Source: an uncultured Muribaculaceae bacterium (GTDB lineage Bacteria; Bacteroidota; Bacteroidia; Bacteroidales; Muribaculaceae). From it: 41,364 bases of DNA. Location: NCBI GenBank assembly GCA_944321715.1, contig CALUMJ010000024.1, positions 1 through 41,364 on the forward strand, written 5' to 3'. The notes under the pieces were generated by a model that saw only the letters and a list, made by a program, of their open reading frames with translations, was not told the origin of the DNA and ran no database searches. Shown one piece after another: positions 3,644-6,173 of this stretch (positions are counted from its first letter, which is position 1; the number at the start of each line of letters is the position of its first letter). The translations under genes and the position numbers were made by a program.

Positions 3644-3675
3644 TGTAGCCGTCATACCATGGCGGCTCGTTACTG
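3644..3675 (-). repeat. Short palindromic repeat, copy 1
   Basis: On the minus strand this reads CAGTAACGAGCCGCCATGG and continues into TATGACGGCTAC. The core GAGCCGCCAT/ATGACGGCTC folds on itself with one C-A mismatch. The same core recurs at 3767-3799, 6071-6100 and 6144-6173. This copy has lost two bases (TAGCC instead of TAGAGCC) relative to the others. It resembles a REP-type element. Confidence 0.65.
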
Positions 3676-3766
3676 CCACAGTTTGCAGCACATTGTGGTT
3701 GTGGTTGCAATCGGGCGGTCATCGAGCCGCTGTCGAGGTGTCATTGGGTTGCCATCAGGCGGTCAT

Positions 3767-3799
3767 CGAGCCGCCATGATATGACGGCTCTACAGTAAT
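3767..3799 (+). repeat. Short palindromic repeat, copy 2
   Basis: Carries CGAGCCGCCATGATATGACG and then GCTCTACAGTAAT. It differs from the 6144-6173 copy by one base in the loop. Directly upstream are two direct copies of a GCGGTCATCGAGCCGC block, so the element appears to have duplicated locally. Confidence 0.65.
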
Positions 3800-3934: not shown

Positions 3935-6001
3935 ATGAGTAGCGGAGAGCAAGCAAATAGTGCGGCATTGCCCGAGGGTGCCATGCTGATGGGCGGAAAG
4001 TACCGCATTGTCAAGAAGTTGGGGCAAGGGGGCTTCGGCATCACCTATCTTGCCGAGCATGTCGAGCTTGAGAAGCGGGTTGCAATCAAGGAATTCTTTT
4101 TCGGGCAGTATTGCGAGCGCGATGCCGACACGTCGCATGTAACGGTACCGACTGCCGGCAACCGCGAGCTTGTGGAGAAGTTCCGGCGCAAGTTTGTCAA
4201 GGAAGCGAAACTCATAGCCAGCAAGCTGTCGCATCAGTCAATCGTGCGAGTGTCCGACGTTTTCAGCGAGAATGGCACGTCATATTACGTGATGGATTAC
4301 ATCGATGGTCGTTCGTTGTCGGAGATTGTTGCCGAGCGTGGGCGCATGGGCGAAACGGAGGCCATCGGCATCATCGACAGTGTGGGTAAGGCATTGGAGT
4401 TCATCCATTCGCAGAAAATCAACCACCTTGACATCAAGCCGGGCAATATCATGGTGGAGCGCAACTCGGGCAACGTGGTGCTAATCGACTTCGGCGTAGC
4501 CAAGCAGTATGATGCCGAAACGGGCGAGGCCACGACTACCACTCCTGTGGCACACAGCCGCGGCTATGCGCCTCCCGAGCAGTACAAGCCCGGTGGCGTG
4601 GGTAGCTTCACGCCCGAGAGCGACATCTATGCCCTCGGGGCGACACTCTACAAGATGGTAACAGGCACCACGCCCCCCGATGCAATGGACGTGGTGACGC
4701 AAGGCGGCATCCCACCGTTGCCCGGCAGCATATCTGCCCCCGTGCGGCGCGCCATCACCGCCGCCATGCAGACTGCGAAGAAAGACCGCCCGCACACCGT
4801 TGCCGAGTTCCTCGGCATACTGCACGGCAAGGCCGTCGGCGAGGAAACCGAGGTGGACGAGAAGAAGCGGAAGCAGAACGACATCGAGGTAATTGTTATC
4901 GATGATGGACGTGGTGGCAAAGGCAATAATGGCAACAATGGTGGCAGAGCAAGTGACAGCAGTGCATCGGGTCATAACCCCCAACCACAGCCAACTCCAC
5001 AATCGCAGCCACGTCGCAAGTGGCTGCCGTGGGTGGTAGCTGCCGTGGTGGCAGTGGTTGCATTTGTGGCAATCATGCTGCTACCCCAGCAGCCCGAGCC
5101 GATACCACCTGATATAATAGCGGCAGTGGCAAGCGGCGCCGACACGGTGTCGCAGCAAGAGCAGCCGCAGCAGCCAGTGCGGCCACCGTCGCAGCCACAG
5201 GTCCAACAGCAGCAACCTGCACAGCCTAATTCACCACAGCCAACGCAACAAATAGTTCAGCAGCAGTCGCAATTTGTGCAACCAACAGTAATTGAGCCAG
5301 AGCAAACAGAGCGGCATCAGAACAATTTGATGGAAATTGAGATGGTGTGGGTTTCTGGTGGCACGTTCTCTATGGGTGCAACAACGGAGCAAAGTGGCGA
5401 TGCGTACAGTGATGAAATTCCTGCTCACAGGGTTACGTTGGGTGGCTATTACATAGGCAAGTATGAAGTGACGCAGAAATTATGGAAGGCAGTGATGGGC
5501 AGCAACCCGAGTAGATTCAAGGGTGACAACCTGCCAGTGGAGAATGTAAGTTGGAACGATGTACAAGAGTTTATCCGCAAGTTGAACCAGCTGACAGGGA
5601 AGAGTTATCGTTTGCCGACTGAGGCAGAGTGGGAGTATGCGGCACGTGGCGGCGGTAGCAGCCTCGTCTACAAGTACAGTGGCAGTAACAATATAGGTAG
5701 TGTGGCATGGTATAGGGGTAATAGCGGCTACGGAACGCACCCAGTAGGGAGCAAATCACCGAACGAGTTGGGTATCTATGACATGAGCGGGAACGTGTGG
5801 GAGTGGTGTCAGGATTGGTACGATAATGGTTATTATGATAAATTGCCGCAACGAAATCCCACAGGACCTACTAGTGGGGTGCACCGCGTGTGCCGTGGCG
5901 GTAGCTGGTACGATGATGATAGGAGCTGCCGGGTGTCGAACAGGAGTCGTAGCAACTCTAGCAATCGGCGCAACTACCTTGGTTTTCGCCTCGTCCTTTA
6001 G
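3935..6001 (+). CDS. Ser/Thr protein kinase fused through a membrane segment to an FGE-like domain
   Basis: 688 residues. A cytoplasmic eukaryote-like kinase comes first: glycine loop LGQGGFGITYLAEH (about 29-42), Lys52 in VAIKEF, catalytic HLDIKPGN with Asp166, DFG at 185-187, APPEQY at 212. One membrane helix follows (about 363-384), then a Pro/Gln-rich linker (about 385-465) and an exported FGE/SUMF1-type domain (466-688) with GGTFSMG, YEVTQKLWKAVMG, YRLPTEAEWEYAARGG and GNVWEWCQDW. Of the two copper-binding cysteines of true FGE, the first position is Asp660 and only the second (Cys665) is kept, so sulfatase activation is unlikely and a binding role is more plausible. The last 36 codons look like a diversified region (see findings). 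Start 3935 is chosen over 3848 because the promoter lies between them. Ligand and kinase substrates are unknown. Confidence 0.9.
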   Translation: MSSGEQANSAALPEGAMLMGGKYRIVKKLGQGGFGITYLAEHVELEKRVAIKEFFFGQYCERDADTSHVTVPTAGNRELVEKFRRKFVKEAKLIASKLSHQSIVRVSDVFSENGTSYYVMDYIDGRSLSEIVAERGRMGETEAIGIIDSVGKALEFIHSQKINHLDIKPGNIMVERNSGNVVLIDFGVAKQYDAETGEATTTTPVAHSRGYAPPEQYKPGGVGSFTPESDIYALGATLYKMVTGTTPPDAMDVVTQGGIPPLPGSISAPVRRAITAAMQTAKKDRPHTVAEFLGILHGKAVGEETEVDEKKRKQNDIEVIVIDDGRGGKGNNGNNGGRASDSSASGHNPQPQPTPQSQPRRKWLPWVVAAVVAVVAFVAIMLLPQQPEPIPPDIIAAVASGADTVSQQEQPQQPVRPPSQPQVQQQQPAQPNSPQPTQQIVQQQSQFVQPTVIEPEQTERHQNNLMEIEMVWVSGGTFSMGATTEQSGDAYSDEIPAHRVTLGGYYIGKYEVTQKLWKAVMGSNPSRFKGDNLPVENVSWNDVQEFIRKLNQLTGKSYRLPTEAEWEYAARGGGSSLVYKYSGSNNIGSVAWYRGNSGYGTHPVGSKSPNELGIYDMSGNVWEWCQDWYDNGYYDKLPQRNPTGPTSGVHRVCRGGSWYDDDRSCRVSNRSRSNSSNRRNYLGFRLVL
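5894..6001 (+). other. Candidate diversity-generating retroelement variable region
   Basis: This is the 3' end of the kinase-FGE gene, from RGGSW to the stop. Sixteen codons starting at 5909, 5912, 5915, 5918, 5924, 5939, 5945, 5948, 5951, 5954, 5957, 5960, 5963, 5969, 5972 and 5975 all end in C or T and encode only Tyr, Asp, Ser, Asn or Arg. All can be reached from AAC or AAT by changing adenines. The invariant frame between them (CRVSNR and LGFR) matches the C-terminal motif of FGE-type retroelement targets. No template copy or reverse transcriptase is in the window, and ordinary FGE-like proteins can be Asn/Ser/Arg rich here. Confidence 0.4.
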
Positions 6002-6070: not shown

Positions 6071-6100
6071 TTGTAGAGCCGTCATACCATGGCGGCTCGA
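6071..6100 (-). repeat. Short palindromic repeat, copy 3
   Basis: The plus strand reads TTGTAGAGCCGTCATACCAT and then GGCGGCTCGA. It lies in inverted orientation to copy 4, 43 bases away, so the pair could form a longer cruciform just after the kinase gene and may also terminate its transcript. Confidence 0.7.
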
Positions 6101-6143
6101 TGATAGCTCGATTGTGACCGCAATATACTGTAAATGTGACAGT

Positions 6144-6173
6144 AACGAGCCGCCATGGTATGACGGCTCTACA
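6144..6173 (+). repeat. Short palindromic repeat, copy 4, with a degenerate fifth copy
   Basis: Contains CGAGCCGCCATGGTATGACG followed by GCTCTACA. The bases before it (CTGTAAATGTGACAGTAACG) are echoed at 6203-6224 (CTGTAAGTGTTGCAGTAACG), followed by GAGCCGC, so a decayed fifth copy lies at about 6218-6240. The shared flank shows that the repeat unit is longer than the palindrome. Confidence 0.65.

Follow-up and report, generated by a model that had tools for sequence, protein, structure and literature searches.

A transmembrane kinase-FGE gene of an uncultured Muribaculaceae bacterium as a probable former target of a diversity-generating retroelement

Background

A stretch of 41,364 nucleotides from an uncultured Muribaculaceae bacterium (hereafter the window) carries a gene in which a Ser/Thr protein kinase is joined to an FGE domain, and the last codons of this gene resemble the variable region (VR) of a diversity-generating retroelement (DGR). 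A first-pass annotation, made from the window alone, took the gene for a remote DGR target. Is it one, which template would serve it, and is it still being rewritten? The gene is compared here with its own genome (a MAG of 2.82 Mb in 88 contigs, 92.9% complete with 2.7% contamination) and with genomes of the same genus and family.

Architecture of the kinase-FGE gene

The gene occupies positions 3935..6001 of the plus strand, on which all its domains lie too. The reading frame is open from 3848, and the ATG at 3935 is the likely start because a paralog (C7b, on contig C7) has Met at the matching place. The kinase domain (4001..4678; PF00069, E 7e-40), with HLDIKP and DFG motifs, is followed by a single predicted transmembrane helix (5018..5083, from a hydropathy scan), a Q/P-rich linker, and an FGE-sulfatase domain of the C-type-lectin fold (5339..5995; PF03781, E 2.5e-54) that runs up to the stop codon. 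The helix is preceded by RRK, which by the positive-inside rule would place the kinase in the cytoplasm. With one such helix in a diderm Bacteroidota cell, the expected place of the FGE domain is the periplasm. The external face that the first-pass annotation gave to this membrane kinase is therefore doubtful.

An FGE domain with a C-terminal VR, as in the window gene, is an architecture of DGR targets. The AF2 model of the domain has a pLDDT of 93. Its best match is TvpA of Treponema denticola (PDB 2y3c), by profile (E 1e-56) as well as among PDB folds (E 5e-23, TM 0.85). TvpA is a DGR variable protein, and its place as nearest solved structure on both measures supports the reading of the window gene as a DGR target. 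The variable codons would encode putative ligand contacts.

The gene is bracketed by MITE-like repeats: a palindromic pair on its 5' side (3647..3794) and a single element with 28-nt perfect inverted arms on its 3' side (6072..6173). The core of this repeat has 68 matches (51 merged elements) in the genome. Five of the 12 FGE-family genes or gene pieces tested have an element no more than 500 bp away, and three of these five are flanked on both sides (P about 1e-4 in a post hoc test that places the elements at random among 2300 gene gaps, an assumed number). When the window was searched by nucleotide BLAST against the 18 kb surrounding the homolog in a sister species (L245), only the gene and the sequence directly beside it matched, with no wider synteny.

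Codons of the variable region

There are 23 codons between GGSW and LGFR. Re-reading confirms that 16 of them end in a pyrimidine and encode only Tyr, Asp, Ser, Asn and Arg (TAC, GAT, GAT, GAT, AGC, AAC, AGT, CGT, AGC, AAC, TCT, AGC, AAT, CGC, AAC and TAC). The intervening codons (e.g., TGC, CGG, GTG, TCG, AGG) keep the CRVSNR frame, as had been annotated. Such codons are concentrated where a VR would be: each of the eight best listed 34-codon spans has 18 of them, where the gene averages 7.1, and every one of these spans lies at the end of the gene. The region first marked, 5894-6001, is real but too short. Aligned to TR1, a template on contig C33 described below, the VR extends over 5870..6001 and takes in two more variable codons, CAC at 5882 and TGC at 5891. 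The claim that every codon can be derived from AAY holds at most variable sites; it fails against TR1 at 5918, 5954 and 5957, which face GCC, TCT and CCC, and at 5960, which faces GAC. Note that the pyrimidine endings were rejected as independent proof of a DGR. They mostly restate the amino acids, and only the choices of AGY for Ser and CGY for Arg carry independent information (P about 0.035).

A DGR locus on another contig

BLAST of the end of the window gene against its own genome finds, besides further FGE tails, two matching places on contig C33; one of these is a copy rich in AAC, the template TR1. The order on the minus strand of C33 is a kinase-FGE gene, a disrupted HRDC-type gene, a reverse transcriptase (RT) and TR1. 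In a PF00078 (RVT_1) search this RT is the only match in the genome, and searches with RT proteins likewise gave no second one. It has the motifs GLPIGNLTSQ and YMDD, which mark RTs of the DGR type, and shows 57% identity across 174 residues to an RT whose frame is open in a relative (G117). By sequence it is a DGR-type RT, though one split over two frames in this assembly and so only a putative active enzyme. The HRDC accessory gene also lies in two frames: a MITE-like insert, whose inverted arms are 33 nt long, and an in-frame stop interrupt it. Its frame is open in the relatives L206 and L210. The breaks in the two genes may be either real or assembly errors.

The local VR on C33 differs from TR1 at 23 of 35 adenines and at one of the 94 other bases (p 1e-15), as expected of a template and its target. 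This local target too has, by eye, a hydrophobic helix between kinase and FGE. The first-pass annotation had proposed a search for an adenine-rich near copy of the tail beside an RT gene. TR1 and the RT are indeed there, but the window gene differs from TR1 at 22/94 non-adenine bases as well. As a separate observation, a 64-nt inverted repeat (78% complementary; L023 329-392 and 2313-2376) lies just 3' of TR1 and just 3' of the local VR. A phage origin was considered and dropped, since a scan of viral_contigs with the first RT piece as query gave no relative.

Adenine bias among the FGE tails

The genome has 15 FGE places. After TR1 itself, C54 (an FGE protein of 477 aa whose tail is of another kind), and C43 and C8 (both without their C-terminus) are set aside, eleven tails remain for ungapped comparison with the 35 adenines and 94 other bases of TR1. 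Three of the eleven, the local tail of C33 and the remote tails C6b and C7a (19/35 adenine and 1/94 other mismatches each), differ almost only at adenines (19-23/35 against 1/94; p 3e-12 to 1e-15). The others grade away from TR1: C35 (24/35 adenine, 8/94 other mismatches), C28 (13/35, 16/94), C7b (23/35, 17/94), C50 (19/35, 17/94), the window tail (18/35, 22/94; p=0.0026), C6a (22/35, 34/94), C39 (16/35, 46/94) and C55 (22/35, 47/94). A stretch of about 485 bases reaching past the stop codon is the same in C6b and C7a, while their upstream parts differ, so the two tails (L034/L036, contigs C6 and C7) are one diversification event copied by recombination. Contig C43 ends (L041) within an FGE gene, and the sequence at this end, which reads as Illumina adapter, is probably an assembly artefact.

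Since two of the three tails with almost adenine-only differences are remote from TR1, diversification of kinase-FGE genes in trans is well supported. A caveat is that the contigs of a MAG are joined by binning, although the TR1-derived tails on C6 and C7 sit on contigs of >100 kb. The genome has 11 kinase-FGE genes, one of them cut by a contig end. The RNA of TR1 is, or was, presumably reverse-transcribed with random bases going in at adenines, and the cDNA would then replace the 3' end of the target genes. The outcome would be a sensor domain, probably periplasmic, in which variable ligand contacts are coupled to a cytoplasmic kinase.

A plainer explanation of the window tail is that no DGR ever acted on the gene and that a tip rich in polar Tyr, Asp, Ser, Asn and Arg is normal for FGE. 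It is consistent with the pyrimidine endings, which largely follow from the amino acids. It also fits the tails of C39 and C55, of doubtful DGR status, which vary at the same codons with no significant adenine bias; part of the modest adenine excess of the window tail could be such ordinary variability. Three features of the window gene make this explanation very improbable: a residual adenine bias (18/35 against 22/94 overall; 16/33 against 9/53, p 0.002, at codon positions 1 and 2), a template frame, RVxRGGSW...CRVSxR...LG, that is kept across 42 aligned family members, and a clade shared with fresh targets.

That clade comes from a tree built without the VR, in which the window gene falls among seven rows with a support of 100/100. 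Four of the seven carry VRs with 1/94 non-adenine mismatches, so a DGR-target ancestor is the simplest reading. The branching order inside the clade is not settled around the window gene. The tree left out four of 21 intended rows, and one row of the sister species G007 (C20a) stood one codon out of register in it; the same row was out of register in the test of codon positions 1 and 2 (in register it has 26/96 non-adenine mismatches).

Divergence of the window tail from TR1

The idea of a remote target thus survives in part. Kinase-FGE genes elsewhere in the genome differ from TR1 almost only at adenines and the window gene belongs to their clade, but it does not behave as a current target. 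In the part of its FGE domain that precedes the VR, it is 21-23% different from its clade-mates C33, C35, C6b and C7a, and the figure for the clade-mate C7b is 27%. The non-adenine divergence of its VR from TR1, 22/94 or 23%, matches this 21-27%, and in pairwise comparison with all ten paralogs tested the non-adenine divergence of its tail (22-31%) tracks the upstream divergence (21-30%). A fresh pair looks different: C33 and G007-C43 are 11% apart upstream but only 2% in the VR. The agreement between tail and upstream part therefore indicates no rewriting by TR1 since the lineages split. A better template than TR1 was found neither in the own genome by BLAST nor in 397 family genomes by a pattern search allowing <=3 mismatches, which returned only TR1. 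With mismatches at background level, no better template and an RT in two frames, the window gene is classed as a former or otherwise-templated target, not as a current target of TR1.

Taken together, the gene is read (probability about 0.72) as a kinase-FGE paralog of a family diversified in trans that was itself once diversified and has most likely been retired. It would have been rewritten in the same way as its relatives, and its VR would then have drifted at the rate of the rest of the domain; it is this drift at the domain rate that makes a retired target the most likely case.

Next in order comes a template outside the assembly: a second template, with its own RT and TR missing from the 92.9%-complete genome, would still be rewriting the window gene. 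A second template is implied elsewhere. The C50 tail and the sister-species tail G007-C47b have 17 and 16 non-adenine changes from TR1. The two genes are 26% different upstream, and their VRs differ at only 3/94 non-adenine but 18/35 adenine sites. This pattern is the mark of homing from a shared second template, and with it an unseen template becomes possible for the window gene too. A pattern search for a C50-like template (<=3 mismatches) in nine genomes of the genus returned only TR1; the own and G007 assemblies are 92.9% and about 83% complete. The AAY-derivable codons of the window tail at most variable sites also fit this alternative. It is nevertheless unlikely for the window gene. The backbone of its tail occurs in no other tail, the closest of 78 other tails and templates (ungapped) being 21/94 non-adenine sites away, and drift already predicts the equal divergence of tail and upstream part against each of the ten paralogs. 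In addition, the second base is A or G in every one of its 14 AAY-facing codons, against 78% in nine confirmed template-target pairs (P about 0.03 under the spectrum of these pairs), a hint that polar residues were later selected for.

DGRs and FGE tails in related genomes

At E 1e-10, an RT match is found in 29 of 297 family genomes searched, own genome included, and in one of nine genomes of the genus, the own one. Ten RT loci were fetched. Seven of them have an RT, a TR and an FGE target, with 0-1 non-adenine mismatches between TR and target VR; L208 yielded no TR/VR pair, and L212 and L213 have another type of target. In the latter two (L212 3653-3976, L213 2946-3610) the template contains GCGAATAAY, and the VR starts about 210 and 550 bases before it. 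All eight local targets of the seven loci are FGE by Pfam (one is an 86-residue piece) and none has a kinase domain, so the kinase fusion occurs as a local target here only on C33.

Among the 18 remote FGE tails compared from five RT-bearing genomes, three are clearly adenine-biased relative to the local template: G117 L218 (20/37 adenine, 2/91 other mismatches), G170 L223 (18/36, 7/93) and G280 L221 (16/37, 10/98). The remaining 15 have p >=0.004. Most paralogs are therefore ageing or non-diversified, and the window gene is in keeping with them. In the sister species G007, one tail has 20 adenine mismatches and one other mismatch to TR1, and two other tails are identical to tails in records of 'Candidatus Avimuribaculum pullicola'. 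BLAST of TR1 against 61 relatives scored 13 of 23 first-look candidates in G000 and 13 of 14 in G007; no absence is claimed from it.

Meaning and comparison with known systems

The sequence shows that this gut Bacteroidales genome has had a DGR acting on transmembrane kinases whose genes are dispersed over it. Fresh, ageing and stale VRs stand side by side in this one genome, which could make the turnover of targeted hypermutation measurable, and the paired tails of two species suggest a template absent from both assemblies. A broader scenario is speculative and, in our view, doubtful: members of the genus may keep about a dozen hypervariable receptor-like membrane kinases, often bracketed by MITE-like repeats and rewritten in trans by at least two alternative DGR templates that come and go, with older members such as the window gene being fixed, 'matured' receptors kept after template loss.

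Literature searches, from which subscription journals were mostly out of scope, returned only a liver-disease review for DGRs with Muribaculaceae and only phage or virome papers for DGRs with Bacteroidales and hypervariable. Neither kinase targets nor remote targets of DGRs are new. DGRs of human microbiomes are described as commonly targeting FGE (PMC4159848), a link between DGRs and the FGS/FGE domains of conflict systems has been drawn (PMC7159879), and a large survey states that its own method would miss such remote targets (PMC8144416).

Three known systems are close. In cyanobacteria, Ser/Thr kinases with a C-terminal CLec domain are the commonest DGR targets and remote paralogs occur; those targets are mostly predicted to be cytosolic, some being transmembrane or secreted, (PMC7517822), whereas in the window gene, and by eye in the C33 target, kinase and FGE lie on either side of a hydrophobic helix. 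In Thiohalocapsa PB-PSB1, candidate remote targets and diversification in trans have been explored, Pkinase is among the domains, and transposons and MITE-like repeats surround the DGR loci. That bacterium is multicellular, and its targets are putative conflict systems (PMC10907252). The TvpA DGR of T. denticola shares the FGE/C-type-lectin tip, the C-terminal VR and the remote targets. HRDC is named 10 times in its description and has a remnant here; the term 'kinase' does not occur in that paper, as against 11 kinase-FGE genes in the present genome. Target genes left over after loss of the template or the RT, the state most likely for the window gene, have been described in T. denticola (PMC4891356).
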